64,000 bases of DNA from Georgenia muralis (GTDB lineage Bacteria > Actinomycetota > Actinomycetes > Actinomycetales > Actinomycetaceae). Every line of letters starts with the position of its first letter. Within the stretch, counting starts at the first letter, position 1. The DNA lies in assembly GCF_003814705.1 (NCBI RefSeq), contig NZ_RKRA01000001.1:1426001-1490000 (forward strand), in the 5' to 3' direction. The translations under genes were made by a program, and so were the position numbers. This document shows positions 6,518 to 62,600 of this stretch, piece after piece. The notes under the pieces were generated by a model that was not told the origin of the DNA, searched no databases, and saw only the letters and a list, made by a program, of their open reading frames with translations.

Positions 6518-6523
6518 GGGTGA

Positions 6524-6529: not shown

Positions 6530-6540
6530 GACGCCCGCCC

Positions 6541-7691: not shown

Positions 7692-8315
7692 ATGGGTGTG
7701 CACTGGCGCTTCCGAGGGCACATCGCCGGGGTCGGCACGGCCGAGGGCACCCGTCTGGTGGTGGGCCACTGGCCGAGCTCGCCGTTCGGTCCGTTCTCCG
7801 ACGTCATGGTCGAGCGCCGGGACGGCCGGCGGATCCTCCTCGCCCCGGACCGCCGGGTCGCGGACTTCGTCGCCGCGACCTACCGCTTCGACGAGGTCCG
7901 CCTCGTGCCGGTGCGGGTGCGCCGGTCCGCCGTCGGCTGGCGGGTCGACGCCGGGCCGCTCGAGCTGGAGATCGCGTCGGGCCGCCGCGCGCCGCTCGGC
8001 CACCTCCTCCGCCTGGTGCCCGGGCCGGTCGCCGAGTCGCTGACGTGGGCCCGGCTCGTCGGTCCGGTGGCGGCGCTGGTCCTGCCCGGCGTCCGGACCA
8101 CCGGGTCGGCGGGCGGTGGCCGGGTCGAGTGGTACGGCGCCCGGGACGTGCACCGGATCGCCGCCGCCCGGGTCCGCTGGGAGGGCCGCGACCTGGGCGG
8201 CCTGCGCCCGGTCGAGCCGCCCACGCGCTTCGGGTTCTCCTCCACCCCGGCGACACCGTCCGTGGTCACCGTGACCACCGGTGTGCGCGGCACCGGTGCG
8301 CGAGGGGCAGGCTGA
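7692..8315 (+). CDS. conserved actinobacterial protein of unknown function
   Basis: A soluble protein of 207 residues with no domain I can name. Its N-terminus (WRFRGHIAGVGTAEGTRLVVGHW) and a SPFGPFSDVMVE segment look like those of small conserved actinobacterial hypothetical proteins. It is rich in beta-strand-like stretches and has no signal peptide, membrane segment or cysteine. The ATG at 7692 follows a GGAGG at 7681-7685 with good spacing. It is divergent from the LLM gene at 7599 and convergent with the next LLM gene, so it is probably transcribed alone. Confidence 0.75.
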   Translation: MGVHWRFRGHIAGVGTAEGTRLVVGHWPSSPFGPFSDVMVERRDGRRILLAPDRRVADFVAATYRFDEVRLVPVRVRRSAVGWRVDAGPLELEIASGRRAPLGHLLRLVPGPVAESLTWARLVGPVAALVLPGVRTTGSAGGGRVEWYGARDVHRIAAARVRWEGRDLGGLRPVEPPTRFGFSSTPATPSVVTVTTGVRGTGARGAG

Positions 8316-8394
8316 CGGCGCGTCCGGGCGGGCCAGGCGCGTCCAGCGGCGGCCGGCCCGCCCTGCGCCGGGAGTGTGCCGGAAGTGCCGCCGG

Positions 8395-9318: not shown

Positions 9319-9451
9319 GCACCCAGCCTGCCAGAGCGGGCCGACAACCGGCCCGTGAGCGGGCACGGGTGCGCGACGCCGACCGGCTGCCACGGGGACC
9401 CGCGCGCCCGCGCAGCCCGTGCGCGCGGGTGTGCCGGTCGTGCCCCGCGCC

Positions 9452-9457
9452 TACCCT
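9452..9457 (+). promoter_or_regulatory. -10 element of the winged-helix gene
   Basis: TACCCT, eight bases before ATG 9466, with no Shine-Dalgarno sequence between. Confidence 0.5.
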
Positions 9458-9465
9458 TGGACCAC

Positions 9466-11792: not shown

Positions 11793-11812
11793 GTGCTGGC
11801 GTGGAAGAGCCC

Positions 11813-11840
11813 ACGGGTCCGGCCGTTCGGCCGGTGCCGT
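11813..11840. terminator. weak hairpin after the GH3 gene
   Basis: CCGGCC-GTTC-GGCCGG at 11819-11834, extendable by ACGG/CCGT across two mismatches. No T-run follows. Confidence 0.35.
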
Positions 11841-12073
11841 GTAGGACGAGCTCACGGCCCCGCGGGCTCCGGTGACCACCTGGTTCTCGCCGCCGCGTGG
11901 CGGGAGGACCGGCAGGTCCGTCCGCTGACGGCTAGCGGGTGGCCACCTCACGCGTCCTGTAGGAATTCACCTCTGGACCACCTCCTCTCTCGTGTGCGCA
12001 CAACGGTAAGCACCTCACCTGGGCGCTGTCACCCCCTTTTCGGGACGCGACGCTCCCCTGGCACGATGGTCCC

Positions 12074-12607
12074 GTGACCGCCTCCGACCCGTACCGCGTC
12101 CTCGTCGTCTGCACCGGCAACATCTGCCGTTCGCCCATGGGCGAGGTGGTGCTGCGCGAGCGGCTCCGCGAGGCCGGGCTCGACGGCGCCGTCGAGGTCG
12201 CCTCGGGCGGGGTCAGCGACGAGGAGCGCGGCAACCCCATCGACGAGCGGGCGCACTCAGTGCTCGTCGAGCGTGGCTACTCCCCCCACGTCCACCGCGC
12301 GCACCGGGTCGAGGAGGAGGAGATGGCCGCCTACGACCTCGTCCTGGCCATGACCACCGAGCACGCCCGGGTGCTGCGCCGCCGCGCCCACGGCGTGACG
12401 GACGCCGCGGAGATCCGCCTCTGGCGCGAGTTCGACGCGACCGCGCCGCGTCTTGCCGACGGCGCCGCCGAGCACCACCTGGACGTGCCCGACCCCTGGT
12501 ACGGCGACCGGGAAGGCTTCTACGACACCCTCGAGGCCGTCGAGCGAGGCGCCCTCGGTGTCCTCGACCACGTGCGGGAGCGCCTGGGCGTCACTCCTCG
12601 GCCGTGA
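12074..12607 (+). CDS. low-molecular-weight protein-tyrosine phosphatase
   Basis: A protein of 177 residues that hydrolyses phosphotyrosine (or arginine phosphate in some relatives) in the cytoplasm. The P-loop CTGNICRSP holds catalytic Cys13 and Arg19 near the N-terminus, and DPWYG near residue 140 supplies the general-acid Asp. The length is slightly above the usual 150-165. The GTG at 12074 was chosen because the P-loop must sit close to the N-terminus; CACGAT six bases upstream may be a leaderless -10. The 3' end overlaps the convergent phosphoribosyltransferase gene by 17 bases. Confidence 0.9.
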   Translation: MTASDPYRVLVVCTGNICRSPMGEVVLRERLREAGLDGAVEVASGGVSDEERGNPIDERAHSVLVERGYSPHVHRAHRVEEEEMAAYDLVLAMTTEHARVLRRRAHGVTDAAEIRLWREFDATAPRLADGAAEHHLDVPDPWYGDREGFYDTLEAVERGALGVLDHVRERLGVTPRP

Positions 12608-13169
12608 CCGGTGGCTGCGCCGACCACGGGAACGTGATCCACAGGTCGGTGCGGCGCCAGACGTAGTCCGGCTCGATGACCGAGCGGGGCTTGGCGTAGA
12701 CGACGGCGGAGCGTGCGTCGACAGCGACCGTCTCCCCGGTGGTCACCGCGCCGTCGCCGTCGACGTCGGCCGGCAGGCCCCGGGTGCGGATGAGGTCCAT
12801 GACGAGCGCCAGCGTGCGACCGGAGTCCGCGACGTCGTCGACGACGAGCACGCGCTTGCCCGGCAGCTCCGAGGTGTCCATGAGCGGGGGCAGGACGACC
12901 GGTTCGGGCAGGGTCTCGGCCACGCCGGTGTAGAACTCGACGTTGAGCGTGCCCATCGCCTTCGTCCCCAGCGCGTACGCGACCGCCCCGGCGGGCACGA
13001 GGCCGCCCCGGGCGACGGCGATGACGAGGTCGGGCATCCACCCCGAGCGGACGACCTCGCGCGCGAGCTCTCGCGCGGCCTCCCCGAACTGGGCCCAGCC
13101 GAGGACCTCGCGCTCCTGCTCCTCGGTGGTGCTGGCGCCGTCGTCGAAGGCGCGGGTCGTCTCGCTCAT
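12591..13169 (-). CDS. phosphoribosyltransferase with an EF-hand-like insert
   Basis: A protein of 192 residues with a type-I PRTase fold. The PRPP-binding loop VLVVDDVADSGRTL (residues 107-120) and an upstream VIAVARGGLVPAGAVAYALGT segment resemble actinobacterial xanthine/hypoxanthine-type PRTases, so a purine-salvage role is likely. After the PRPP loop, residues 135-146 read DVDGDGAVTTGE, a perfect canonical EF-hand loop pattern; this is unexpected in a PRTase. ATG 13169 has TAGGCT six bases upstream, suggesting a leaderless transcript. The C-terminal coding end overlaps the phosphatase gene tail to tail. Confidence 0.85.
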   Translation of the reverse strand: MSETTRAFDDGASTTEEQEREVLGWAQFGEAARELAREVVRSGWMPDLVIAVARGGLVPAGAVAYALGTKAMGTLNVEFYTGVAETLPEPVVLPPLMDTSELPGKRVLVVDDVADSGRTLALVMDLIRTRGLPADVDGDGAVTTGETVAVDARSAVVYAKPRSVIEPDYVWRRTDLWITFPWSAQPPVTAEE

Positions 13170-13175
13170 CCGCCC

Positions 13176-13181
13176 AGCCTA
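13176..13181 (-). promoter_or_regulatory. -10 element of the phosphoribosyltransferase gene
   Basis: TAGGCT on the minus strand, six bases before ATG 13169, without a Shine-Dalgarno sequence. Confidence 0.6.
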
Positions 13182-13189
13182 GGGCCGCG

Positions 13190-13255
13190 CCGACCGGGAC
13201 CTCCGCGACCGCCGACCGGGACCTCCGCGACCGCCGACCGGCACCTCTGCGACCG
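13190..13255. repeat. three tandem 22-bp repeats
   Basis: CCGACCGGGACCTCCGCGACCG at 13190-13211 and 13212-13233 (identical), and a two-mismatch copy at 13234-13255. They lie between two minus-strand genes, just upstream of the phosphoribosyltransferase promoter. Confidence 0.9.
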
Positions 13256-13299
13256 CGGGCGCGGACCGGCCCGCGTGCCCGGCAGCCGCGTCGACCTGC

Positions 13300-13917
13300 T
13301 CAGCGGCGCATCGAGACGTGCACGTGGTCGAAGTGGCCGCCGACGGCGTCGGTCGGGTCGTACACCCCACCGCCGTCGTAGGGGGCCCAACCCAGGTGCG
13401 GACGCGAGTCCACCCAGATCCGGCCCTGCCAGATCACGTACCGCACCTCCAGGGCGTCGGCGTGCCGGCGCAGCCACTCCGCGGTGGCCCAGCCCTCGGC
13501 GAGGTCCGTGCCGGTGGCGAACTCCCCGGCGGGGCCGGGGAAGAAGTCGCACGCCCGGCCGGCCGGGTGGTCGCTGCCCGGGTTCCAGGCGTGCTCGCTC
13601 CAGCACGTCGCCGGCTGCGCGCCGAACGCGGCGGTGACCTGCCCGAGCATCCACGCCGTCGGCGCGGTCAGGCACCCGCCGGTGCCGGTGGGGTCCGTCG
13701 CCGTGCAGCCGCCCTTCTCGCCGGTGAAGGGTGCCGGCGCCCCGGGGAGGGGGATGCTCACGGGCGCGGCGGGCCCGCCGACGATCCGGTCCGCCGGCCG
13801 GGCGTCCCAGGCCGCGAGGCCGGCCAGGGCGAGGGCGGCGAGCGCCACCGCGCGCAGCACGCCGGCGGCCGGACGTCCGGCGCGGTGGCCGGGTCCGTGC
13901 GTCGGGACGCCCCCCAC
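13300..13917 (-). CDS. secreted or membrane-anchored M15-like domain protein
   Basis: A protein of 205 residues. A hydrophobic stretch near residues 20-36 (VLRAVALAALALAGLAAW) looks like an N-terminal anchor or signal peptide. The C-terminal domain contains SDHPAGRACDFFPG, a WLRRHADALEVRYVIWQGRIW segment and GGHFDHVHVSM. The spaced His/Asp residues (SDHP..ACD..HFDHVH) resemble the metal site of M15/D-Ala-D-Ala peptidase-like extracellular domains common in actinobacteria. A cell-wall role is inferred. The start is a GTG at 13917 and is uncertain. Confidence 0.75.
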   Translation of the reverse strand: MGGVPTHGPGHRAGRPAAGVLRAVALAALALAGLAAWDARPADRIVGGPAAPVSIPLPGAPAPFTGEKGGCTATDPTGTGGCLTAPTAWMLGQVTAAFGAQPATCWSEHAWNPGSDHPAGRACDFFPGPAGEFATGTDLAEGWATAEWLRRHADALEVRYVIWQGRIWVDSRPHLGWAPYDGGGVYDPTDAVGGHFDHVHVSMRR

Positions 13918-48680: not shown

Positions 48681-49200
48681 GTGCGATACCCCCTCACCGG
48701 GCGACGCACGGCCCAGCTCTTCGCCGCCGACCCGGACCGGGCCGAGGCGCTCGCCGGGCCCGCCCTGCGCTGCGTCGTCGACGTCGACGACTCGGCGTTC
48801 CTGCCGCCGGGCGACATGCCCGCCCGGATCGCCGAGGCCGCCCGGCGCACCGGGCAGCGCCCGCCGGAGAGCCCGGCCGAGACCGTGCGCTGCATCCTCG
48901 ACTCCCTCGCCCTGGCCTACCGGCGCGCCGTGCGCATGGCGGCCGGCCTCGCCGGGCGCAGGGTCGGGTGGTCCACCTCGTCGGCGGCGGGGCGCGCAAC
49001 GCGCTGCTGTGCTGCCTCACGGCCGCGGCCACCGGCCTACCCGTCGTGGCCGGGCCCACCGAGGGCGCGGCGCTGGGGAACCTCCAGGCCCAGGCCCAGG
49101 CCCTCGGCGATGTCGCACCGGGCCTGCCCGCCCTGCGCCGGGTGGTCGCCGCCTCCGTGCCGACCACCTCCTACGAGCCCACCCAGGACGAACCCACCGG
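48681..49200 (+). pseudogene. rhamnulokinase C-terminal remnant with a frameshift
   Basis: The first frame reads DDSAFLPPGDMPARIAEAAR, TGQRPPESPAETVRCILDSL and ALAYRRA, matching the region before the conserved C-terminal ATP site of RhaB-type kinases. Near 48960-48968 the frame changes and continues VVHLVGGGARNALLCCLTAA, TGLPVVAGPTEGAALGNLQA and QAQALGDV, the RhaB C-terminus. No N-terminal two thirds is present in the window. The gene is dead: truncated at its 5' end and frameshifted. Confidence 0.75.
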
Positions 49201-49273
49201 CACCGTGGCCCGGTGGACCACGCAGAGGACCTGCTGCGGCCGTGAGGGTCGCGCACCGTCAGAAGGAGACACC

Positions 49274-49540
49274 ATGCCCGTGACCGTCCCCGACCCCGAG
49301 CTCATGGCGGCCAACGCCGCCGGCCTGCGCGAGCACGAGATCGTCCTGTGGAGCAAGCACGGGGTCATGGCACGCTCGGACCTGTCCGTCACCCGGGCGG
49401 TGGACCGCATCGAGTACGCCGAGACCGGCGCCCGCTACGAGTACATGGACCTCGTGGCTGGCGGCCGCGCCCAGGGGCTGACCCGGGAGGAGCTGCACGC
49501 CGTCGTCGAGGCGTTCGACGTGCCGACGACGCTCGCCTGA
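49274..49540 (+). pseudogene. rhamnulose-1-phosphate aldolase-like C-terminal remnant with intact ribosome site
   Basis: Eighty-eight codons from ATG 49274 encode VPDPELMAANAAGLREHEIV, LWSKHGVMARSDLSVTRAVD and RIEYAETGARYEYMDLVAGG, the C-terminal part of class-II aldolases of the RhaD type. The metal-binding N-terminal domain is missing. A strong AGAAGGAGAC ribosome site precedes the ATG, so the original gene start may have been joined to the C-terminal part by an internal deletion. It could still be translated, but is unlikely to be an active aldolase. Confidence 0.7.
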
Positions 49541-49565: not shown

Positions 49566-49579
49566 GGAAAGCGCTTGCC
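49566..49579. promoter_or_regulatory. LacI-type operator at the SDR operon promoter
   Basis: GGAAAGCGCTTGCC is a near-perfect palindrome of the LacI/GalR class. It overlaps the -35 hexamer TTGCCA (49575-49580), which is followed after 17 bases by CAGGAT (49598-49603). A bound repressor would block polymerase. Confidence 0.7.
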
Positions 49580-49603
49580 AGCACCGGGCCGGGCTGGCAG
49601 GAT
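49575..49603 (+). promoter_or_regulatory. promoter of the SDR-FAD oxidoreductase-SGNH operon
   Basis: TTGCCA - 17 bases - CAGGAT, about 85 bases before the SDR start. Confidence 0.5.
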
Positions 49604-49688
49604 CGGGTGGGACCCGCGATGACCCGTGGGCCCCGCCGCGAGGCGGACCGGCACCGGAGCGGGCCGGCCACGACGAGGAAGGGCGACG

Positions 49689-50462
49689 ATGCCGAAGGTT
49701 GCGATGATCACCGGCGGGAACCGCGGGATCGGTCTGGGGATCAGCGAGCGGCTCCTCGACGAGGGTTACGCCGTCTCGATCCTGGCCACCCGGGAGGAGC
49801 CAGCCGACGTCATGGGCGCCCTGCGCGAGCGCGGCGAGGCGATCTACGTGCGCGGCTCGGTCGCCGACCTCGACGACCACGCCCGCTACGTCGACGCCAC
49901 GCTCGAGGCGTTCGGGCGGATCGACGTCCTCGTCAACAACGCCGGTGTCGCCCCGACCGTGCGTGACGACATCCTCGTCGCGACGCCGGAGAGCTACGAC
50001 CGCGTCATGGACATCAACCTGCGCGGGCCGTACTTCCTCACCCAGCGGGTCGCCGCGGCGATGATCGAGGCGCGCGGCGAGCTGACGGAACTGCCCGAGG
50101 CCCCGATCGGCACGATCGTCAACGTCTCGTCCATCTCCGCGACCGTCGTGTCGACCAACCGCGGGGAGTACTGCATGTCCAAGGCCGGCGGGGCCATGGC
50201 CACCCAGCTGTGGGCGGCGCGCCTGGCGCCGGAGGGCATCGTCGTCTACGAGGTCCGGCCCGGCGTCATCGCCACCGACATGACCTCCGGCGTCAAGGAG
50301 AAGTACGACGCCCTGTTCGCCGGCGGACTCGCGCCCATGCCTCGGTGGGGCCGCCCGTCCGACGTCGCGGGCGCCGTCGCCCAGCTCGTCGCCGGCCAGA
50401 TGCCCTACTCCACCGGCGACGTCATCAACGTCGACGGCGGCATGCACATCGCCCGGCTGTGA
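49689..50462 (+). CDS. SDR-family oxidoreductase (3-ketoacyl-ACP reductase-like)
   Basis: A protein of 257 residues. TGGNRGIGLGISERL (NAD(P) motif), NNAG, NVSSISATVVSTNRGEYCMSKAG (Ser, Tyr, Lys triad) and the C-terminal GDVINVDGGMHI are classical SDR features. It resembles the 3-oxoacyl-ACP-reductase-like SDRs that often act on sugars in catabolic clusters. ATG 49689 has GGAAGG upstream. It is first in the operon with the FAD oxidoreductase (39-base gap) and SGNH gene, under the LacI-type operator at 49566. Confidence 0.9.
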   Translation: MPKVAMITGGNRGIGLGISERLLDEGYAVSILATREEPADVMGALRERGEAIYVRGSVADLDDHARYVDATLEAFGRIDVLVNNAGVAPTVRDDILVATPESYDRVMDINLRGPYFLTQRVAAAMIEARGELTELPEAPIGTIVNVSSISATVVSTNRGEYCMSKAGGAMATQLWAARLAPEGIVVYEVRPGVIATDMTSGVKEKYDALFAGGLAPMPRWGRPSDVAGAVAQLVAGQMPYSTGDVINVDGGMHIARL

Positions 50463-50500
50463 CCGCCGAGCCCGCGCCCACCGCGTCCTGGAGGACCGCC

Positions 50501-52588
50501 ATGCCCCACGACCCGCAGCCCCTGACCATCGCCGAGAAGGAGGTGCCCGTCGTCACGGCCAACACCGTCGTCGTCGGCACCGGCTCGGCCGGCTTCTGCG
50601 CCGCCGACCGGCTGGTCGACTTCGGCCAGGACGACGTCGTCATGGTGGTCGACAAGGTCGGCGCCGGGGCGAGCCGCAACGCCGGCTCGGACAAGCAGAC
50701 CTACTACAAGCTCACGCTCTCCGGCTCCGACCCCGACTCGGTCCACGAGATGGCCCGGACCCTCTTCTCCGGCGGGGCGATGGACGGCGACAACGCGCTC
50801 GCCGAGGCGGCCCTGTCCGCGCGGGCGTTCCTGCACCTGTGCGACCTCGGTGTCCCGTTCCCGCAGAACCGGTACGGGGAGTTCATCGGCTACAAGACGG
50901 ACCACGACCCCCGGCGTCGCGCCACCTCCGTGGGTCCGTACACGTCGCGGTCGATGGTCACCCAGCTCGAGGAGAAGGTGAACCGGGACGGCACGCGCAT
51001 CTTCGACGACTGCCGCATCGTCGACCTCATCACCGCCGGCGGCGCCGTCGTCGGCCTGCTCGTCCTGCGCCTGGACGTCCCCTTCGACGGTGCCGAGAGC
51101 CCGTTCATGCTCTTCCGCTGCACCAACGTCGTCTACGCCACCGGCGGCCCGGCGGGGCTGTACGCCACCCGGGTCTTCCCCAACGGCCAGTGGGGCGCCT
51201 CGGGGGCGGCCTACCGGGCGGGCGTGCGCGGCAAGAACGTCACGGAGTGGCAGTTCGGCCTCGCCTCGACCCGGCCGCGGTGGAACGTCTCGGGCACGTA
51301 CATGCAGGTGCTGCCCCGGTTCGTCTCCACCGACGCCGACGGCGGCGACGAGCGCGAGTTCCTCTCCGAGGCCATCCCCGACTACGGCCGCCAGCTGTCG
51401 CTGATCTTCCTCAAGGGCTACCAGTGGCCCTTCGACGTCCGCAAGGCGCTGGACGGCTCGTCGCTCATCGACCTCCTCGTCTACCGCGAGACCGTCCTGC
51501 GCGGGCGCCGCGTGTTCCTCGACTTCCGGTCCAACCCGGTCCGGCCCGAGCTGGACGCAGGGGAGCTCAGCCCCGAGGCGCACGCCTACCTCGAGCGGGC
51601 CGGCGTCCTCTTCGGCACGCCGATCGAGCGGCTGCAGCACATGAACCGCCCGGCCTACGACTTCTACCTCAACAAGAACCCGTACGTGGACCTCGAGAAG
51701 GAGATGCTCGAGATCGACGTGTGCGCCCAGCACAACAACGGCGGCCTCGTCGTCGACACGTGGTGGCAGTCCAACCTCACCGGGTTCTTCCCGGTGGGGG
51801 AGGCCGGCGGCGCCCACGGCGTCTACCGTCCGGGCGGTGCCGCGCTCAACAGCGGCCAGGTGGGCGCCACGCGGGCGGCGGAGTTCATCGCCGCCCGCCG
51901 CACGGACGCACCCGTGGACGACGCGGCCTTCGCCGCCGCGGCCGAGCCGGTGCTCGCCGGAGCCGTCGAGCTGGCCGCCGCCGCGACCGCCCGGTTCGCC
52001 GGCGGCGAGGAGGACAACACCGGTGACCTCCTGCGCGAGGTCGGGGAGCTCATGAGCGCCAAGGCCGGACCGGTGCGCTCGGCGCAGTCGATCCACGAGG
52101 CGCTCGTCCAGGTCCAGCGCTGGCTCGCCGACTACGAGCGGTTCGTCAGCGCCGACGGCGGGTCGCGCCGGGCCGTCAACCGCACCTTCCTCGTCCGCGA
52201 CATCCTCACCACCGCCTACGTCTACCTCTCGGCGATGGCCGACTACGTCGGCCACGGCGGGCGGTCGCGCGGGTCGGTGCTCTACACCGACCCCGAGGGC
52301 TCGCTGCCGCTGGCCGGGTTCGGTGCCGACGCCGAGCGGGAGCTGGACCTGCCCGAGCTGTTCCGCTTCAGCCTCGACGGCGGGGCGCTCGACGGGGAGA
52401 TTCAGGAGACCTGGTGGACGCCGCCGCCCGGCGAGGCGGACGGCGGGACTCCTGGCGCGCACGAGGACGGCGTCGACGGCGCGGGCCAGGTCGGGTTCGA
52501 GTGGCGACCCGTGCGCCCGATCCCCGAGGACGACGACTTCTTCGAGAACGTCTGGCGGGAGTTCCGCGAGCACCGCAACATCTACTGA
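50501..52588 (+). CDS. FAD-dependent oxidoreductase (fumarate reductase flavoprotein-like)
   Basis: A protein of 695 residues of the FAD_binding_2 family. NTVVVGTGSAGFCAADRL is the FAD motif, VYATGG the middle segment, and GFFPVGEAGGAHGVYRPGGAALNSGQVGA the C-terminal FAD-binding block. The C-terminal about 200 residues are a helical succinate-dehydrogenase-like domain and a charged tail. Its role is not known; with an SDR and an esterase-like gene, oxidation or dehydration of a sugar-derived acid is plausible. ATG 50501 follows GGAGGACC. Confidence 0.88.
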   Translation: MPHDPQPLTIAEKEVPVVTANTVVVGTGSAGFCAADRLVDFGQDDVVMVVDKVGAGASRNAGSDKQTYYKLTLSGSDPDSVHEMARTLFSGGAMDGDNALAEAALSARAFLHLCDLGVPFPQNRYGEFIGYKTDHDPRRRATSVGPYTSRSMVTQLEEKVNRDGTRIFDDCRIVDLITAGGAVVGLLVLRLDVPFDGAESPFMLFRCTNVVYATGGPAGLYATRVFPNGQWGASGAAYRAGVRGKNVTEWQFGLASTRPRWNVSGTYMQVLPRFVSTDADGGDEREFLSEAIPDYGRQLSLIFLKGYQWPFDVRKALDGSSLIDLLVYRETVLRGRRVFLDFRSNPVRPELDAGELSPEAHAYLERAGVLFGTPIERLQHMNRPAYDFYLNKNPYVDLEKEMLEIDVCAQHNNGGLVVDTWWQSNLTGFFPVGEAGGAHGVYRPGGAALNSGQVGATRAAEFIAARRTDAPVDDAAFAAAAEPVLAGAVELAAAATARFAGGEEDNTGDLLREVGELMSAKAGPVRSAQSIHEALVQVQRWLADYERFVSADGGSRRAVNRTFLVRDILTTAYVYLSAMADYVGHGGRSRGSVLYTDPEGSLPLAGFGADAERELDLPELFRFSLDGGALDGEIQETWWTPPPGEADGGTPGAHEDGVDGAGQVGFEWRPVRPIPEDDDFFENVWREFREHRNIY

Positions 52589-52603
52589 CGCCGGAGGGTC
52601 CCG

Positions 52604-53630
52604 ATGACTGCCGACTCCCCGGGCCGGTGTGCGGCTGGTCCTACGCACCTCGGCCACCGTCCTCGAGCTGGACGTCCGCGCCACCCGGACCCGGTTCACC
52701 GGGCGGCCGGTGGCCGACGCGGGCCGCTACGAGGCCGTCGTGGACGGCGCCGTCGTCGCCTCCGGCACCGCCGAGGCCCACGGGGTCGTCGAGCTCGACC
52801 CGGTGACCGGCCTCGGCAGCCGCCGGCCGGGCCCGGTGGCCACGGTGCGCCTCGGACCGCTGCCCACCGGCGAGAAGGACGTCGAGGTCTGGCTCCCGTA
52901 CGGGGAGATCACCGTGCTCGTCGCGCTGCGCGCCGACGCCCCGGTCGCCGCGGCCTCCGAGCAAACGCACCCGCGGTGGGTCCACCACGGGAGCTCGATC
53001 AGCCACGGCGCCTCGGCCACCGCACCCACGGGCACCTGGCCGGTCGTGGCCGCCCGGGCGGCGGGTCTGGACCTGGTCAACCTGGGCCTGTCCGGCAACG
53101 CGCTGCTCGACCCCTTCACCGCCCGCGCGATCCGGGACCAGCCCGCCGACGTCATCACCCTCAAGCTCGGCATCAACGTCGCCAACCACGACGGTTTCCG
53201 GCGCCGCACCTTCGCCCCGGCGGTGGACGGCTTCCTCGACACCGTTCGGGAGGGCCACCCGGACACCCCCGTCGTCGTCATCTCGCCGATCCTGTGCCCG
53301 ATGGTCGAGGACCGGCCCGGCCCGACGTCGATCGAACCGGACTCCCCGGGCGACGCCCCGTCCTTCCGGACCGCCGGCAGGCCCGAGGAGGTCGCGGAGG
53401 GCAAGCTGAGCCTGGCCGTGATGCGGGAGGTCCTCGCCGCCGTCGTCGCCCGGCGCCGCGCGGCCGGCGACGAGGCGCTGACCTACCTCGACGGCCGGGA
53501 GCTGTTCGGCGAGGCGGAGTGGGACCGGATGCCCATGCCCGACCTGCTCCACCCCCACGACGCCGGGCACCGGCACATGGGGGAGCGGTTCGCCGCTCTG
53601 CTGCCGGGGCTCGCCGGGCTGCGCCGCTAG
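52604..53630 (+). CDS. SGNH/GDSL hydrolase (possible 5' frameshift)
   Basis: The conserved frame runs from GTG 52629 (333 residues) and has an N-terminal beta-sandwich and an SGNH core: HGSSISHG (nucleophile Ser), LGLSGNALLDP, LKLGINVAN and DLLHPHDAGH (Asp/His). A deacetylase or carbohydrate esterase role is likely. However, the well-placed ribosome site GGAGGG and ATG 52604 lie in a different frame. Removing one base near 52628 would join MTADSPGR to VRLVLRTSA. Either the true start is the weakly supported GTG 52629 or there is a one-base frameshift or sequence error. The stop shares CTAG with the lacI stop on the other strand. Confidence 0.82.
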
Positions 53631-54640
53631 CGCGCCGGCGTCGACTCGCGCACGACGACCTCGCCCGCGAGGTGGACCTCGCGCGGCTCGCCCGGCCCCA
53701 GGGCCAGCTCGGTGGCCAGCACGCCGGCCTCCACGAGCGGGACCCGCACCGTGGTCAGCGCCGGGGTGATGTCGCGCAGGGTGGAGATGTCGTCGAACCC
53801 CGCCACGGCGACGTCGTCCGGCACGGAGACACCGGCGTCCCGGGCCGCGGCCATCGCACCGACCGCCATGACGTCGTTGACGGCGAAGACCACCTCGGGG
53901 CCCGCGTCGCGCCGGAGCAGCTCGGCCATGCCCTCGTACCCGCCGTCGCGGGTGAAGCCGGAGTGGACGACCGCGCCGTCCGCCAGGGGCGCGCCGAGCT
54001 CGTCGAGCGCCTCACGGAAGCCGCTGAGCCGGTCCCGGGAGGTGAGGTGGTCCACCGGGCCGGCGACGACGGCGAAGCGGCGGTAGCCGATCCCGTGCAG
54101 GTGCCGGGCGAGGTCGGCGGCCCCCTCGCGGTTGTCCACCACCACGGTGCTCATGCCCTCGAGCGGCTGGCTGACGAGCGCCACCGAGCCGCCGGCGGCC
54201 TGGAACCCCTCGAGCGCCGCGCGCAGCGCCGCGGTGCCCTCGGGGTCGTCGCGCCGGCCACCGGTGACCACGATGGCGCGGACACGCTGGCGGCGCAGGA
54301 GCTCGACGAAGCTCACCTCGCGGGCAGGGTCGTGCTCGGTGGAGGTGAGGACCACCGACAGGCCAGCGGCCTCGGCCGCCCGGGTCACCCCGGCGGCGAT
54401 CGCGGAGAAGTAGGGGTCGGCGATGTCGTGGACGATGAGCCCGAGGGAGGTGGTGCGCCCCCGGGCCATCGCCTGGGCGTTGGCGTCGGGGGAGTAGTGC
54501 AGCCGGGCCGCGGCGGCGAGGACCCGCTCGCGCAGCGCCGGTCCCACCGTCCGGTTGGTGCTGCCGTTGATCGCGCGCGACGCCGTCGCGAGGGACACGC
54601 CGGCCTCCCGGGCGACGTCGCTGAGGGTCGTGGTGCGCAC
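53627..54640 (-). CDS. LacI-family transcriptional regulator
   Basis: A protein of 337 residues. The helix-turn-helix TTLSDVAREAGVSLATASRAING is at the very N-terminus when GTG 54640 is used, as expected for LacI proteins; the longer frame to 54664 would extend into the operator. The C-terminal part is a periplasmic-binding-protein-like sugar sensor. The candidate operators are at 49566, 54649 and 59255. The leaderless -10 TACCCT lies six bases before the start, and the autoregulatory operator overlaps it. Tail-to-tail with the SGNH gene. Confidence 0.92.
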   Translation of the reverse strand: MRTTTLSDVAREAGVSLATASRAINGSTNRTVGPALRERVLAAAARLHYSPDANAQAMARGRTTSLGLIVHDIADPYFSAIAAGVTRAAEAAGLSVVLTSTEHDPAREVSFVELLRRQRVRAIVVTGGRRDDPEGTAALRAALEGFQAAGGSVALVSQPLEGMSTVVVDNREGAADLARHLHGIGYRRFAVVAGPVDHLTSRDRLSGFREALDELGAPLADGAVVHSGFTRDGGYEGMAELLRRDAGPEVVFAVNDVMAVGAMAAARDAGVSVPDDVAVAGFDDISTLRDITPALTTVRVPLVEAGVLATELALGPGEPREVHLAGEVVVRESTPAR

Positions 54641-54646
54641 CTGCTC

Positions 54647-54652
54647 AGGGTA
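54647..54652 (-). promoter_or_regulatory. -10 element of lacI
   Basis: TACCCT six bases before GTG 54640, with no Shine-Dalgarno sequence. Confidence 0.6.
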
Positions 54653-54662
54653 AAGGCTTTCC
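54649..54662. promoter_or_regulatory. LacI-type operator at the lacI promoter (autoregulation)
   Basis: GGTAAAGGCTTTCC; its reverse complement GGAAAGCCTTTACC matches the 49566 operator at 11 of 14 positions. It overlaps the -10 element, so binding should repress lacI. Confidence 0.6.
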
Positions 54663-54753
54663 ACCGTGCCGCGGCGGTCTTCGCCACTCGATAGTGTGGC
54701 CGCTGCCGAGGTGCGGCGGCTGCCGGGGCCGGACCCGAGGACCAGGAGGCACG

Positions 54754-55530
54754 ATGAGCCAGGCCGGGGGATCTCCCGTCGAGGCGGTCGACCGCGCCCT
54801 GCTCGCCCTCCAGGCCCTCGCCGACGCCGGCCCCCGCGGGCTGGTCCTCGCCGACCTCGCCGCGTCGCTGGGGCTGAACAAGACCACCACGCACCGGGCC
54901 CTCGCCGCCCTGAAGTTCCGCGACTTCGTCATTCAGGACGCCGTGAGCGGCCGGTACGTCCTGGGCCCCGGGGCCACCCGGCTGGGCGAGTCCTTCTACG
55001 CCGACGAGAACCTGCCCGCGCTCCTGCACCCGGCCCTCGTGGCCCTCGTGGCCGAGGTCGACGAGCTGGTCCACCTCGGCGTCCTCGCCGGGACGCAGGT
55101 CGTCTACCTCGACAAGGTCGAGCCGGAGCGGGCGGTGCGCGTCTGGTCGGCGATCGGACGGCGGGTCCCGGCGGCGACGACGGCGTTGGGTAGGGCGCTG
55201 CTGGCCTACCGCGGCACCGACCGGCCGGTGCTCGAGGGGTACGTCCGCTCCCTCCCGGACCCCTCGCCGGCCGTGGCGGAGCGCGCCTGGGCCGCGCTCG
55301 AGGAGGCCCGGGCCGGAGGGTTCGCCCGCGAGAGCGAGGAGAACGAGCCGGGCATCAGCTGCCTCGCGGTGCCGCTCCTGCGCCTGGGGGCCGCCGTGGC
55401 CGCCGTGAGCGTGACCGCCCCGGCCGAGCGCATGACCGAGGACCGCGTCGCCGCCCTGCGCGGGACGATCTCCCGCGTCCTGCCGCCCCTGCTGCCCGAG
55501 GGCTTCACGCTCCCCGAGCCGGCCCGCTGA
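54754..55530 (+). CDS. IclR-family transcriptional regulator (KdgR-like)
   Basis: A protein of 258 residues. The winged-helix domain contains VLADLAASLGLNKTTTHRALAAL (about 32-54); the effector domain contains LGVLAGTQVVYLDKVEP and ISCLAVPLL. Next to KDPG aldolase and KDG kinase, it is probably a KdgR-type regulator that senses a 2-keto-3-deoxy sugar acid. ATG 54754 has AGGAGG upstream. Divergent from lacI. Confidence 0.92.
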   Translation: MSQAGGSPVEAVDRALLALQALADAGPRGLVLADLAASLGLNKTTTHRALAALKFRDFVIQDAVSGRYVLGPGATRLGESFYADENLPALLHPALVALVAEVDELVHLGVLAGTQVVYLDKVEPERAVRVWSAIGRRVPAATTALGRALLAYRGTDRPVLEGYVRSLPDPSPAVAERAWAALEEARAGGFARESEENEPGISCLAVPLLRLGAAVAAVSVTAPAERMTEDRVAALRGTISRVLPPLLPEGFTLPEPAR

Positions 55531-55634
55531 CCCACGAGGTCCGACCGGCCGACGGTGCCCGGCGCCGGGCGCCCGCGATCCCTGGACCGGGGCGGTTGCG
55601 GCGGCGATGACGACGTGGCAGAGTGCGTTACACC

Positions 55635-55669
55635 TACCGTTATGCACGTTCCCCTGAGTGAAACGGAAC
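55635..55669 (+). promoter_or_regulatory. candidate promoter and IclR operator before eda
   Basis: TACCGT (55635-55640) is a -10-like hexamer. GTTCC (55648-55652) and GGAAC (55665-55669) form an inverted repeat just downstream, positioned as a roadblock or start-site operator. An IclR family role is inferred from the next gene. Confidence 0.4.
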
Positions 55670-55674
55670 CTTCC

Positions 55675-56301
55675 ATGGATGTCCTCCAGGCCCTCACCGA
55701 CGCCCGCCTGGTTCCCGTCGTCGTCCTCGACGACGCCGCCGACGCGGACCCGCTGGCCGCCGCCCTCGTCGCCGGCGGCCTGCCGGTCGCCGAGGTCACC
55801 TTCCGCACCTCCGCCGCCGAGGACGCCATCCGGGCCATGTCGGCCCGCGGTGACATCCTCGTCGGCGCCGGCACCGTGCTCACCGCCGAGCAGGTGGACC
55901 GCGCCGTCGACGCCGGGGCCTCCTACGTCGTCTCGCCCGGCCTGAGCCGGGCCGTCGCCGAGCGCTGCCGCGAGCGCGGCGTGCTCCCGCTGCCGGGCGC
56001 CGTGACCGCCACCGAGATTCAGGCCGCCCTCGAGCTCGGGCTCGACACGGTCAAGTTCTTCCCCGCCGGCACCTCCGGCGGCGCCCCCGCCATCAAGGCC
56101 CTCGCCGCGCCGTTCGGCGGTGTGCGCTTCGTGCCCACCGGCGGGATCGGGCCGAAGAACCTGCGCGAGTACCTCGACATCCCGGCCGTGGCCGCCGTCG
56201 GTGGGTCGTGGATGGTGCCGAAGAACCTCGTCGCCGCCGGCGACTTCGCCGAGGTGACCCGCCTGACCACCGACGCCGTCGCGCTCGCCGCCGGCGCCTG
56301 A
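55675..56301 (+). CDS. eda: 2-dehydro-3-deoxy-phosphogluconate (KDPG) aldolase
   Basis: A protein of 208 residues, the class I aldolase that splits KDPG (or KDPGal) to pyruvate and glyceraldehyde-3-phosphate. VAEVTFRT (Glu40), VGAGTVL, the Schiff-base Lys127 in TVKFFPA and GGIGPKNL are conserved. ATG 55675 is preferred; ATG 55642 in frame is a possible longer start. The kinase follows after 13 bases. Confidence 0.93.
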   Translation: MDVLQALTDARLVPVVVLDDAADADPLAAALVAGGLPVAEVTFRTSAAEDAIRAMSARGDILVGAGTVLTAEQVDRAVDAGASYVVSPGLSRAVAERCRERGVLPLPGAVTATEIQAALELGLDTVKFFPAGTSGGAPAIKALAAPFGGVRFVPTGGIGPKNLREYLDIPAVAAVGGSWMVPKNLVAAGDFAEVTRLTTDAVALAAGA

Positions 56302-56314
56302 GAGAGGACGAGAC

Positions 56315-57418
56315 ATGAGTGACCTGACGATCCGCCCCGCCGAGGAGTGCCAGTACGACGTCGTCTCCCTGGGCGAGGTCATGCTCCGCCTGGACCCGGG
56401 CGAGGGCCGCATCCGCACCGCCCGGAACTTCCGCGCCTGGGAGGGGGGCGGCGAGTACAACGTCGCGCGCGGCCTGCGCCGGTGCTTCGGTCTGCGTGGC
56501 GCCATCGTGACGGCACTGGCCGACAACGAGATCGGCCGCCTGGTCGAGGACCTCATCCTCACCGGCGGCCTCGACACCCGCTTCATCAGCTGGGTGCCGT
56601 ACGACGGCATCGGCCGCGGCGTGCGCAACGGCCTGAACTTCACCGAGCGCGGCTTCGGGGTCCGCGGCGCCGTGGGCGTCTCCGACCGCGGCCTCACCGC
56701 CGCGTCGCAGCTCGCCCCCGGCGACGTCGACTGGGACCACCTCTTCGGCGAGCTCGGGGTCCGGTGGCTGCACACCGGCGGGATCTACGCCGCACTGTCG
56801 GAGACGTCGGCCGAGACGGTCATCGCGGCCGTCACCGCCGCCAAGCGGCACGGCACGGTCGTCTCCTACGACCTCAACTACCGGCCCAGCCTGTGGAAGG
56901 CGATCGGCGGGCAGGACAAGGCGCGCGAGGTCAACCGCGAGATCGCCAAGCACATCGACGTCATGATCGGCAACGAGGAGGACTTCACCGCCTCCCTCGG
57001 CTTCGAGGTCGAGGGTGTGGACGAGAACCTCTCCGAGCTCGAGGTCGACAAGTTCGCCGCCATGATCGACAAGGTCGCGGCGGAGTACGAGAACTTCAAG
57101 GTCATCGCGACGACGATGCGCACCGTCCGCAGCGCCACCGTCAACGACTGGGGTGCCCTCGCCTGGTCGCGGGCGACCGGCACCGTCCAGGCCACCCACC
57201 GGCCCGGGCTGGAGATCCTCGACCGGGTCGGCGGCGGGGACTCCTTCGCCTCCGGGCTCATCTACGGCCTCCTCGAGGGTGAGCCCCTCCAGACGGCGGT
57301 GGAGTACGGGGCCGCGCACGGGGCGCTGGCGATGACCACCCCGGGCGACACGACCATGGCCAGCAAGGCCGAGGTGCTCAAGCTCGCCGGTGGTGGCGGG
57401 GCCCGCGTCGACCGCTGA
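56315..57418 (+). CDS. kdgK: PfkB-family 2-dehydro-3-deoxygluconokinase
   Basis: A protein of 367 residues of the ribokinase/PfkB family that phosphorylates 2-keto-3-deoxygluconate to KDPG for the aldolase encoded just upstream. ARNFRAWEGGGEYNVARGLRR is the substrate region; DRVGGGDSFASGLIYG with catalytic Asp309 is the PfkB signature. ATG 56315 follows GAGGAC. Downstream a 13-bp hairpin at 57447-57476 ends the unit. Confidence 0.92.
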   Translation: MSDLTIRPAEECQYDVVSLGEVMLRLDPGEGRIRTARNFRAWEGGGEYNVARGLRRCFGLRGAIVTALADNEIGRLVEDLILTGGLDTRFISWVPYDGIGRGVRNGLNFTERGFGVRGAVGVSDRGLTAASQLAPGDVDWDHLFGELGVRWLHTGGIYAALSETSAETVIAAVTAAKRHGTVVSYDLNYRPSLWKAIGGQDKAREVNREIAKHIDVMIGNEEDFTASLGFEVEGVDENLSELEVDKFAAMIDKVAAEYENFKVIATTMRTVRSATVNDWGALAWSRATGTVQATHRPGLEILDRVGGGDSFASGLIYGLLEGEPLQTAVEYGAAHGALAMTTPGDTTMASKAEVLKLAGGGGARVDR

Positions 57419-58844: not shown

Positions 58845-59225
58845 ATGCCCGAGGTCGAGCCAGGACCGCCCGAGAGGCGCACCGAAGGCGAGCTCACGGC
58901 CAGGTCGGACGAGCGTGCGGGGTGGACCTTCCTGACGAACCACGCCCACGTTCTCCTCGCGGTGGCCGCCGCCCCGGACAGCCGCGTCACCGACGTCGCG
59001 CGACGGGTGGGCATCAGCTCGCGCGCGACCGTGGCCATCCTCAACGACCTGGAGGCGGCGGGCTACGTCCACCGGACCAGGCGCGGCCGCCGCACCCACT
59101 ACACGGTCGACCAGGGGCGCCCCTTCCGACATCCCACGACTGCGGCCCACGCCGTCGGTGAGCTCCTGGCCATCTTCGGTGCGCCCCGGGGAGAGGACGG
59201 CGCGGCGCCCGCGCCGTCCTCTTGA
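58845..59225 (+). CDS. small winged-helix (MarR/ArsR-like) regulator
   Basis: A protein of 126 residues. WTFLTNHAHVLLAVAAAPDS, VTDVARRVGISSRATVAILNDLEAAGYVHRTRRGRRTHYTV gives a clear winged helix with recognition helix and beta-wing. There is no metal- or ligand-binding domain I can identify. ATG 58845 follows GGAAGGGA. A possible partner site is the palindrome upstream of terC. The 3' end contains a terminator stem and also the -35 of the next operon. Confidence 0.82.
   Translation: MPEVEPGPPERRTEGELTARSDERAGWTFLTNHAHVLLAVAAAPDSRVTDVARRVGISSRATVAILNDLEAAGYVHRTRRGRRTHYTVDQGRPFRHPTTAAHAVGELLAIFGAPRGEDGAAPAPSS
59192..59222 (+). terminator. terminator stem inside the regulator gene's 3' end
   Basis: AGAGGACGGCGCG and CGCGCCGTCCTCT form a perfect 13-bp stem with a five-base loop that ends one base before the TGA. 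Confidence 0.65.
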
Positions 59226-59251: not shown

Positions 59252-59254
59252 GAA

Positions 59255-59268
59255 GGAAAGCGCATTCC
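59255..59268. promoter_or_regulatory. LacI-type operator at the Gfo/Idh operon
   Basis: GGAAAGCGCATTCC, matching the 49566 operator at 12 of 14 positions. It covers the expected transcription start just after the -10. Confidence 0.7.
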
Positions 59269-59317
59269 CGATGGCATGGACGCCGTCGCGGCCGCCCCGA
59301 GACCCGGAGGAACCCAC

Positions 59318-60475
59318 ATGACCACGCTGCGCATCGCGATGAACGGCATCACCGGACGCATGGGCTACCGGCAGCACCTCGTGCGCTCGATCCTGCCGAT
59401 CCGCGACGCCGGCGGGGTCGAGCTGCCCGACGGCTCCCGCGTGCAGGTCGAGCCGATCCTCGTGGGCCGCAACGAGAACAAGCTCCGCGAGCTCGCCGAG
59501 CTCCACGGCGTCGAGCACTGGACCACCGATCTCGACGGCATCATCGCCGACCCCACCGTCGACATCGTCTTCGACGCGTCCATGACGAGCCTGCGCCCCG
59601 CGACCCTCGCCAAGGCCATGCGCGCCGGCAAGCACATCTTCACCGAGAAGCCCACCGCCGAGACCCTCGAGGACGCCGTCGAGCTCGCCCGGCTGGGCGA
59701 GGAGTCCGGCGTCACCGCCGGCGTCGTCCACGACAAGCTCTACCTGCCCGGTCTGGTCAAGCTCCGCCGTCTCGTGGACGAGGGCTTCTTCGGCCGCATC
59801 CTCTCCATGCGTGGCGAGTTCGGCTACTGGGTGTTCGAGGGCGACGTCCAGGCCGCGCAGCGCCCCTCCTGGAACTACCGCAAGGAGGACGGCGGCGGCA
59901 TGACCGTGGACATGTTCTGCCACTGGAACTACGTCCTCGAGGGCATCCTCGGCTCCGTCGAGTCCGTCACCGCCAAGGCCGTCACCCACGTCCCGACCCG
60001 CTGGGACGAGAAGGGGCAGCCCTACGACGCCACCGCCGACGACGCCGCGTACGGGATCTTCGAGGTGCGCACTCCCGACGGAGACCCCGTCATCGCCCAG
60101 ATCAACTCCTCGTGGGCGGTGCGCGTCTACCGCGACGAGCTCGTGGAGTTCCAGATCGACGGCACCCACGGCTCCGCCGTCGCCGGGCTGAACAAGTGCG
60201 TCGCGCAGCAGCGCGGCCACACCCCCAAGCCGGTGTGGAACCCCGACCTGCCTGTCACCGAGTCCTTCCGCGACCAGTGGCTCGAGGTCCCCGCCAACGC
60301 CGACCTCGACAACGGGTTCAAGCTGCAGTGGGAGGAGTTCCTCGGCGACGTCGTCGCGGGACGTCCGCACCGGTACGGCCTGCTCTCCGCCGCCCGCGGC
60401 GTCCAGCTCGCCGAGCTCGGCCTGCAGTCCTCGGCCGAGGGGCGGCGCCTGGAGATCCCGGAGATCACCCTGTGA
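59318..60475 (+). CDS. Gfo/Idh/MocA-family sugar dehydrogenase
   Basis: A protein of 385 residues. The Rossmann part starts RIAMNGITGRMGYRQHL, has EKP (110-112; EKPTAET) and a second domain with DMFCHW (Asp198, His202; catalytic-type). Such enzymes oxidise a sugar or cyclitol, often at C3, with NAD(P). ATG 59318 follows GGAGGAACC. The stop overlaps the DUF993 start by four bases (GTGA). Confidence 0.92.
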   Translation: MTTLRIAMNGITGRMGYRQHLVRSILPIRDAGGVELPDGSRVQVEPILVGRNENKLRELAELHGVEHWTTDLDGIIADPTVDIVFDASMTSLRPATLAKAMRAGKHIFTEKPTAETLEDAVELARLGEESGVTAGVVHDKLYLPGLVKLRRLVDEGFFGRILSMRGEFGYWVFEGDVQAAQRPSWNYRKEDGGGMTVDMFCHWNYVLEGILGSVESVTAKAVTHVPTRWDEKGQPYDATADDAAYGIFEVRTPDGDPVIAQINSSWAVRVYRDELVEFQIDGTHGSAVAGLNKCVAQQRGHTPKPVWNPDLPVTESFRDQWLEVPANADLDNGFKLQWEEFLGDVVAGRPHRYGLLSAARGVQLAELGLQSSAEGRRLEIPEITL

Positions 60476-61710
60476 GCGCCCCGCCGGCCGGGACGGACCG
60501 CGTGGTGGTGGACCTGCCGAACGTCGTCGGCACCACCGACCCGTACGTCCTCGGCGCCCCCGGTCCCTGGACCCGGCCGGCGGGTCCTCTGACGGCGCGA
60601 CGCGCCTTCGCCGCCGCGCACGTCGTGCCCCTGACGACGGCGGACAACACCCCGGGCCGCCCGGCCGAGCTCGACTGGGACGCCACGCTGGGCTTTCGCC
60701 ACATGCTGTGGTCCTACGGTCTGGGCGTCGCCGAGGTCATGGACACCGCCCAGCGCGGCATGGGCCTGGACTGGGACGCCGCCGCGTACCTCATCCGGCG
60801 CTCGGCCGCCGAGGCGCGCTCGGTGGGCGGCCTGCTGGCGTGCGGCGCCGGCACCGACCACCTGACCCCCGGCCGGGTCGCCGAGCTTGTCGCGGGAGAC
60901 CGGGAGGCGGGCCTGCACGCCGTCACCGACGCGTACCGCGAGCAGCTGGGGACGGTCGCCGCCGCCGGTGCCACGCCCGTCCTCATGGCCTCACGCGCCC
61001 TGACGGCCGTGGCCCGGGACGCCGACGACTACCTCGCCGTCTACTCCACGCTGCTGTCGGAGGTGACCGAGCCGGTCATCCTGCACTGGCTCGGCGAGGT
61101 GTTCGACCCGGCGCTGGCCGGGTACTGGGGGGCCGGCGACCCGCACACCGCGGCGGCGACGGTGCTCGAGCTCCTGCGCGCCCACGGGGGAAAGGTCGAC
61201 GGCATCAAGGTCTCCCTCCTCGACGCCGGGTTCGAGGTGTGGCTGCGCGACCAGCTCCCGGCTGGCGTCCGGCTGTACAGCGGGGACGACTTCAACTACC
61301 CCGAGCTCGTCGTGGGTGACGACCGTAGCCACTCCGACGCACTGCTCGGCGTCTTCGCCGCCATCGCCCCGGCGGCCTCCACCGCCCTCCAGGCGCTGGA
61401 GTCCGGCGACGAGGCGGGCCGGGCCCGGGCGCTGGAGATCCTGCGTTCGACCGAGGCGCTCGGCCGGCACATGTTCGAGAAGCCGACACCTCACTACAAG
61501 GTGGGCATCGCGTTCCTGTCGTGGCTCAACGGGCACCAGCCCGGCTTCCAGATGGTCGGGGGCATGCAGTCGGCGCGGTCCGCGCGCCACCTCACCACCC
61601 TCTTCCGGCTCGCCGACGGCGCGGGCCTCCTGCTCGACCCCGACCGTGCCGCGCACCGCATGAGGGCCTTCCTCGAGGTCGCCGGCATCACTCCCGAGGA
61701 GACCCGATGA
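60472..61710 (+). CDS. DUF993 protein, dihydrodipicolinate synthase-like
   Basis: A protein of 412 residues of the DUF993 family, which is TIM-barrel-like and of unknown function. PVILHWLGEVFDP (201-213), DGIKVSLLD with Lys246 and GVRLYSGDDFNYPELV (265-280) align in order and spacing with PVILYNVP, GIKE and the LLSGDD strand of dihydrodipicolinate synthase/N-acetylneuraminate lyase. Lys246 sits where those enzymes form a Schiff base. A class I aldolase or dehydratase acting on a keto-sugar is inferred. Both ends overlap neighbours (GTGA, ATGA). Confidence 0.85.
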   Translation: MSAPPAGTDRVVVDLPNVVGTTDPYVLGAPGPWTRPAGPLTARRAFAAAHVVPLTTADNTPGRPAELDWDATLGFRHMLWSYGLGVAEVMDTAQRGMGLDWDAAAYLIRRSAAEARSVGGLLACGAGTDHLTPGRVAELVAGDREAGLHAVTDAYREQLGTVAAAGATPVLMASRALTAVARDADDYLAVYSTLLSEVTEPVILHWLGEVFDPALAGYWGAGDPHTAAATVLELLRAHGGKVDGIKVSLLDAGFEVWLRDQLPAGVRLYSGDDFNYPELVVGDDRSHSDALLGVFAAIAPAASTALQALESGDEAGRARALEILRSTEALGRHMFEKPTPHYKVGIAFLSWLNGHQPGFQMVGGMQSARSARHLTTLFRLADGAGLLLDPDRAAHRMRAFLEVAGITPEETR

Positions 61711-62600
61711 CCGACCTGTCCCGCCTCTCGCTCAACACCGCCACGACCAAGTCCTGGACCCTCGAGCAGGCCGTCGACGGCGCTGTGCGGGCCGGTCTGC
61801 CGGCCGTCGGCCTGTGGCGTGACCGCGTGGCCGAGGCGGGGCTCGAGCGCAGTGCGCGCCTCGTCGCCGATGCGGGGCTGCGCGTGTCCTCCCTGTGCCG
61901 CGGCGGGTTCCTCACCGCCGCCGACGACGAGGGACGGCGAGCCGCGGTCGAGGACAACCGCGCGGCGGTCGTCGAGGCCGCCACCCTCGGGACGCGTGAG
62001 CTCATCATGGTCGTCGGCGGGCTGCCCGCGGCGAGCGCGCCCGGCGGGCCGGCCCTGCCCGACGGCGACCGTGACGTCGTCGCCGCACGCCGGCGGGTGG
62101 CCGACCGGATCGGCGAGCTGGTCCCCTTCGCCGCCGAGCACGACGTCCGGCTCGTCCTGGAGCCGCTGCACCCGATCTTCGCCGCGGACCGGGCGGTGCT
62201 GTCCACCCTCGGTCAGTGCCTCGACCTCGCCGCGGACTTCCCGGCCGAGTCGGTCGGGGTGGTCGTGGACACCTACCACGTGTGGTGGGACCCGGAGCTG
62301 CGCACGCAGATCGCCCGGGCCGGGGCCGAGGGCCGCCTCGCCTCCTACCAGGTGTGCGACTGGATGCTGCCGCTCTCGGCCGACCCTCTGCTCTCCCGCG
62401 GGTACATGGGCGACGGCTACATCGACTTCCCCACGATCACCCGCTGGGTGAGCGAGGCCGGGTACACCGGCGACGTCGAGGTGGAGATCTTCCGCCAGGA
62501 GATCTGGGACGCCCCCGGCGACGAGGTGGTCGCCACCATCGCCGACCGGTACGTGCGACACGTCCTGCCCTCGCTCACCGCGCCCGTCCGCAGCGCCTGA
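61707..62600 (+). CDS. sugar phosphate isomerase/epimerase-family (AP endonuclease 2-like) protein
   Basis: A protein of 297 residues of the xylose isomerase-like TIM-barrel family. Metal-ligand candidates are Glu152 (LVLEPLHP), Asp188 and His191 (VVDTYHVWWDP) and Glu260 (VEIF). Family members isomerise, epimerise or, in some 3-keto-sugar pathways, eliminate or hydrate keto-sugars. ATG 61707 overlaps the DUF993 stop by four bases. Probably the last gene of the operon; a hairpin follows. Confidence 0.9.
   Translation: MTDLSRLSLNTATTKSWTLEQAVDGAVRAGLPAVGLWRDRVAEAGLERSARLVADAGLRVSSLCRGGFLTAADDEGRRAAVEDNRAAVVEAATLGTRELIMVVGGLPAASAPGGPALPDGDRDVVAARRRVADRIGELVPFAAEHDVRLVLEPLHPIFAADRAVLSTLGQCLDLAADFPAESVGVVVDTYHVWWDPELRTQIARAGAEGRLASYQVCDWMLPLSADPLLSRGYMGDGYIDFPTITRWVSEAGYTGDVEVEIFRQEIWDAPGDEVVATIADRYVRHVLPSLTAPVRSA

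Follow-up and report, generated by a model that had tools for sequence, protein, structure and literature searches.

A conserved Gfo/Idh-DUF993-isomerase operon linked to a LacI-type operator in Georgenia muralis, and a candidate carbon-carbon lyase role for DUF993

The Georgenia muralis genome contains a three-gene operon (positions 59318-62600 of the 64,000-nucleotide window analyzed here, which is contig NZ_RKRA01000001.1 from 1,426,001 to 1,490,000) that codes for a Gfo/Idh/MocA oxidoreductase, a DUF993 protein and a xylose-isomerase-like TIM barrel. The DUF993 protein is almost certainly a divergent member of the DHDPS/NAL class-I aldolase superfamily (DHDPS, dihydrodipicolinate synthase) that has kept the reactive lysine on strand beta-6, and it probably works through an imine. 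The three genes behave as a single conserved unit of function and are preceded by a LacI-type operator. We judge the chances to be evenly balanced that the cluster works, under LacI repression, in the catabolism of a polyhydroxy compound (a sugar, cyclitol or sugar acid, or one of these as a glycoside or ester), with DUF993 cleaving a C-C bond through its lysine and with glycerate as the exit from the pathway. New in this analysis are the LacI-type operator before the oxidoreductase gene (gfo), which is conserved across Actinobacteria, and a regulon link to a set of SDR, flavoprotein and GDSL genes.

DUF993 is a Pfam family (PF06187) that has a solved structure but no described reaction. Its fold and family are already known, as the automatic NCBI name of these proteins is “dihydrodipicolinate synthase family protein” and the structure 4DNH (SMc04132 of Sinorhizobium meliloti) was released by structural genomics in 2012. 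Function, pathway and regulon are without description in the literature searched, which nowhere names DUF993 or PF06187, contained no functional paper for 4DNH or the S. meliloti locus tags and mentioned SMc04132/SMc04133 only in a PhaR proteomics table; NCBIfam likewise has no DUF993 model. An earlier sequence-only reading of this stretch had described DUF993 as a family of no known function in a candidate undescribed pathway, and that part of it agrees with these searches, while the fold had been assigned before.

The conserved operon and the DUF993 active site

The first gene (59318-60475, plus strand) encodes GFO_IDH_MocA domains with EKP and DxxxH motifs that are invariant in the alignment, and has 3oqb as its PDB relative (456 bits). 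DUF993 follows with a GTG start (60472-61710, plus strand; Pfam 553.5 bits, 4dnh 405 bits), and the third gene (61707-62600, plus strand; AP_endonuc_2, 111 bits) encodes a TIM barrel with the PDB relatives 7vpf, 3ju2 (SMc04130) and 3qc0, in which the acidic and histidine residues E151, D187, H190, D217 and E257 (numbered without Met1) are invariant. None of the PDB relatives of the three proteins has a described function. Consecutive genes share four bases at each junction, GTGA at 60472-60475, which contains the DUF993 start, and ATGA at 61707-61710. The coordinates, families and overlaps given by the sequence-only reading are all correct.

In bacterial and archaeal genomes at least 590 DUF993 relatives were found by scanning, and 80 of them were fetched with flanks (about 1.2 Mb) for neighborhood counts. 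The three-gene order proved to be kept in 76 of these, with Gfo/Idh immediately 5' of DUF993 and the TIM-barrel gene immediately 3'. These loci are chiefly from Actinomycetota (the family occurs in 29 of the 396 sampled genomes of the Georgenia muralis phylum) but also from Paenibacillus, Thermosporothrix, Gemmatimonadetes and Deinococcales, and annotated plasmid loci extend the range of DUF993 to Alphaproteobacteria and Erwinia. Where no neighboring Gfo/Idh gene was found, SDR or GMC genes adjoin DUF993. One genome of the same order had DUF993 matched as three abutting pieces and gfo as two, presumably owing to frameshifts or sequencing errors.

An AlphaFold2 model of DUF993, built from 56 sequences, has a mean pLDDT of 94.5. 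When this model was compared with known structures using Foldseek, 4dnh ranked first, and DHDPS-family entries filled all other listed ranks from 2 to 50 (E about 1e-8, target TM 0.68-0.85), which bears out the DHDPS-type fold that had been anticipated. In the structural alignment 4DNH is 53% identical and belongs to the same DUF993 family; it is itself uncharacterised and known from structure alone. Alignment of DUF993 with DHDPS by hhalign extends over 232 columns with an E value of 2.8e-5 and pairs VDGIKVSLLD with VKGVKDATGD, PVILHW with PVILYD, and RLYSGDD with EFYSGDD, thereby confirming the motif order proposed from the sequence. The match is specific and not a general likeness among TIM barrels, since the control alignment of DUF993 with the TIM barrel of the third gene gave no match (probability 0.8%). 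DUF993 thus shares with the DHDPS/NAL family (PF00701) the TIM barrel, the position of the beta-6 Schiff-base lysine, the SGDD motif after beta-7 and the order of motifs. It differs in being longer (412 amino acids) and in lying outside PF00701 detection, as the protein does not reach the PF00701 cut-off and has PF06187 as its sole Pfam match. PF00701 does match one other gene in the genome.

The proposed Schiff-base lysine is Lys246, whose codon is at 61207-61209 on the plus strand. The motif numbering of the sequence-only reading is exact, with PVILHW starting at residue 201, DGIKVSLLD at 243 and LYSGDD at 268. Lys246 is within predicted strand beta-6 (model residues 241-247, numbered without Met1) and is paired by hhalign with the Schiff-base lysine of DHDPS. 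In an alignment of 63 DUF993 sequences it is invariant (63/63), as are His205, Asp91, Thr92, Arg95, Asp129 and Arg175. A lysine that was not conserved or that pointed away from the barrel would have spoken against the proposal; Lys246 withstands this check. Along the strand the invariant residues G244, K246 and S248 alternate with the variable I245 and V247, the pattern to be expected of a lysine that points into the barrel; orientation is here judged from this alternation and not from atomic coordinates.

LacI-type operators and a second gene set

Upstream of gfo there is a near-palindrome with a central CG, AGGAAAGCGCATTCCC (59254-59269), that most actinobacterial relatives keep before gfo as GGAAAGCGC[A/T]TTCC, or as AGAAAGCGCTTGCT in Streptomyces, with a LacI-family gene adjoining. 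A genome-wide search allowing at most one mismatch found this operator in two places only, whereas the reversed sequence used as control gave none. The second copy, GGAAAGCGCTTGCC (49566-49579), is 9.7 kb upstream of the gfo copy and 110 bp before an SDR gene, and is identical to a gfo-promoter site in Arthrobacter relatives. Between the two copies is a LacI-family gene (53627-54664, minus strand) orthologous to the LacI that adjoins the operon in relatives. The LacI of Georgenia subflava matches it best in the Georgenia muralis genome (67% identity, 435 bits, the next LacI scoring 136 bits), and since the Georgenia subflava gene directly adjoins gfo, the region was rearranged and the regulator displaced in Georgenia muralis. 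The near-palindromic operator with its central CG and the linked LacI gene have the appearance of a LacI-family regulon. The single regulated promoter proposed for the three genes is thus supported by a conserved operator, although a consensus promoter and terminator scan found no sigma-70 site before gfo and nothing on either side of the operon.

As judged from these sites, the regulated cluster extends past the operon to 49566-54664. The second operator precedes three plus-strand genes encoding an SDR dehydrogenase of PRK12745 type annotated as “3-ketoacyl-ACP reductase” (49689-50462; NCBIfam NF009386, 347.8 bits against a cut-off of 250), an FAD-dependent oxidoreductase resembling fumarate reductase and aspartate oxidase (50501-52588; PF00890, with only weak NCBIfam matches) and a GDSL/SGNH esterase (52629-53630; PF13472/PF14606) that is probably co-transcribed with the other two. 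Relatives of the SDR adjoin DUF993 in Sagittula, Roseibium and Peteryoungia, and the esterase is 54% identical to part of an open reading frame that, in Micromonospora, overlaps the third gene and continues beyond it. These occurrences at DUF993 loci elsewhere support the link of the second gene set to the DUF993 regulon independently of the operator.

Like operators also occur before NMT1-type ABC transporter genes in Nocardia, Rhodococcus and Mycobacterium, before another TIM barrel in Arthrobacter, and before an MFS transporter and a Gfo-DUF6807 gene in Saccharopolyspora. The Gfo/Idh-DUF6807 protein, possibly a further pathway enzyme, is found near the operon in two loci (L053, 10186-12288; L088, 2545-3678), the latter being the Saccharopolyspora copy with the LacI operator close upstream.

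Other genes in this part of the window were considered as well. A small MarR/ArsR-like helix-turn-helix gene (58845-59225) ends 92 bp before gfo and was rejected as the regulator, as it has no relative in any fetched DUF993 locus. The interval that separates the LacI gene from the gfo operon (54694-57418) holds genes for an IclR regulator, a KDPG aldolase and a KDG kinase; the latter two were rejected as regulon members because they have no operator, have their own IclR gene and are not kept beside DUF993. Just before the second operator (48681-49540), inspection by eye shows fragments similar to the C-terminus of a rhamnulokinase, in more than one frame, and of a rhamnulose-phosphate aldolase, which may be a decayed rhamnose operon.

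A candidate pathway and its alternatives

In the module that we propose, Gfo/Idh, or the SDR or GMC enzyme in variant loci, would oxidize an alcohol of the substrate to a ketone that the metal-dependent TIM barrel may then isomerise or subject to elimination. Lys246 of DUF993 would form a Schiff base with the carbonyl, leading to retro-aldol cleavage of a C-C bond. His205, in the position of the proton-relay tyrosine of DHDPS, and a polar set (D91/R95/D129/R175/D272) would stand in for the site that binds the pyruvate carboxylate. A fragment of three carbons would become glycerate and, through glycerate kinase, phosphoglycerate. Computation supports the operon as a unit, the pattern of operators, the fold, the lysine's conservation and the neighbor counts, whereas we infer the imine chemistry, cleavage in preference to dehydration, the order of steps and the glycerate product alike.

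Glycerate is suggested by gene neighbors. A PF02595 glycerate kinase is beside DUF993 in Nocardia, Nocardioides, Arthrobacter, Pseudonocardia and Leekyejoonella, on plasmid pAO1, and, by motif, in two Micromonospora loci. The unrelated DUF4147/MOFRL kinase has this position in Microvirga, Erwinia, Peteryoungia and Roseibium. With two PF02595 genes in the 4.1 Mb Georgenia muralis genome, chance would place about 0.6 in the flanks of the 80 relatives versus the 8 seen, though these loci are not all independent; the glycerate-kinase loci come from several orders and phyla. That two kinase families were recruited convergently argues for glycerate as the likely end product. The same arguments have been used elsewhere, with glycerate kinase as a marker of cleavage to glycerate in deoxyribonate catabolism (PMC6365646) and a conserved lysine marking the aldolase DUF2090 (PMC9007349). 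On pAO1, the nicotine megaplasmid of Paenarthrobacter nicotinovorans, Gfo/Idh, DUF993 and glycerate kinase genes occur with a sugar ABC transporter, an AldH gene and a GMC oxidase distantly like pyranose oxidase.

Several observations weigh against this proposal. Where the DHDPS family has a tyrosine on beta-5 (Tyr133 of E. coli DapA), DUF993 has the invariant His205, and in place of the G-T-T/S-G-E carboxylate-binding motif after beta-2 it has D91-T92-A93-Q94-R95, invariant except at position 93. Both class-defining features of the DHDPS pyruvate site are therefore absent and the chemistry could differ. The likeness to Schiff-base aldolases drawn by the sequence-only reading consequently survives for the fold and the lysine but not for the residues that define pyruvate chemistry, and an ordinary DHDPS/NanA-type pyruvate aldolase is set aside. 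Additionally, a glycerate kinase is nearby in only about one-ninth of the 80 relatives and not in the Georgenia muralis window, and the transporters vary widely among relatives (NMT1-type ABC, MFS, TRAP and tripartite tricarboxylate), so several substrates are possible. The second operator is supported by one genome plus its site identity, and the FAD protein, searched for at a strict threshold in the 396 genomes of the phylum, was found only in Georgenia muralis, and its gene was not found near DUF993 elsewhere.

The replaced residues would also suit a DUF993 that acts as a Schiff-base hydro-lyase through Lys246, with C-C cleavage occurring elsewhere. DHDPS-fold families include dehydratases such as 5-keto-4-deoxyglucarate and L-KDA dehydratase, and the residue set around Lys246 has been rebuilt. 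However, the recurrent glycerate kinases call for a product of three carbons and the operon has no further recurring aldolase, and we therefore regard dehydration as unlikely.

Similarly improbable, in our estimate, is a 3-keto-glycoside pathway resembling that of levoglucosan or C-glycosides, in which Gfo/Idh would oxidize C3, the TIM barrel would carry out beta-elimination and DUF993 would handle the freed 3-keto-sugar or enone. The levoglucosan pair LgdA-LgdB1 is made up of the same two families, a Gfo/Idh dehydrogenase and an AP_endonuc_2 TIM barrel (PMC10066097), and the GMC gene of pAO1 lies two genes upstream of Gfo/Idh. Levoglucosan dehydrogenase (NF052479) is also the nearest curated model for the window Gfo/Idh, but at 69.7 bits the match is far under the 650-bit orthology cut-off and this identity was rejected. 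The levoglucosan system has no DHDPS-type enzyme, and the paper describing it in LG01 and LG02, whose species carry the DUF993 operon, makes no mention of such a gene. The inositol pair IolG/IolO, which with LgdA/LgdB1 is among the closest described gene pairs, fared no better, as the window genes do not reach the curated cut-offs; an inositol dehydrogenase was rejected on these, and an IolO-type 5-keto-L-gluconate epimerase (NF041099) scored 25 bits against 300.

Least probable is conversion of a sugar acid to a 2-keto-3-deoxy acid that DUF993 would split as a KDG-type pyruvate aldolase to pyruvate and glyceraldehyde, then glycerate, for despite enolase-superfamily genes annotated in operons of S. 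meliloti and Chelatococcus, the KDG kinase and KDPG aldolase genes between the two operons of the window, and an aldehyde dehydrogenase with glycerate kinase on pAO1, DUF993 lacks the motif and tyrosine of pyruvate aldolases and the KDG genes lie behind an IclR gene and not behind LacI operators.

Relation to a widespread E. coli operon

The proposal of a LacI-repressed module with DUF993 as its lyase can be directly examined by growth and trapping assays, given the kept imine-forming lysine, the conserved operon, the single regulator and the glycerate kinases. If it is true, a superfamily used in synthesis would gain a C-C lyase whose active site has been rebuilt, and operons present in many soil, rhizosphere and plasmid-borne gene sets would be explained. 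A broader version, which we advance tentatively as plausible, is that DUF993 is a class-I C-C lyase for an undescribed class of substrate, a keto-polyol and not a pyruvate-derived acid, and that the LacI regulon represents an undescribed glycerate-yielding pathway across several phyla that has SDR, TIM-barrel and flavoprotein enzymes in common with a widespread E. coli operon.

Of 5426 complete E. coli genomes, 3142 have this accessory operon, which is located between ytfB and rplI and contains genes for a TetR regulator, SDR, TIM barrel, crotonase, CoA transferase, flavoprotein and MFS transporter. Three of its products, the SDR, the TIM barrel and the flavoprotein, share 36-38% identity with the window proteins, and genes similar to those for its crotonase and CoA transferase adjoin DUF993 in Microvirga and Sagittula. 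In contrast to the window, it is without DUF993 or Gfo/Idh and has CoA-thioester enzymes. Enzymes common to both would move the question into a tractable laboratory host. In E. coli SA186 the operon occupies 6001-13420 of the examined locus.

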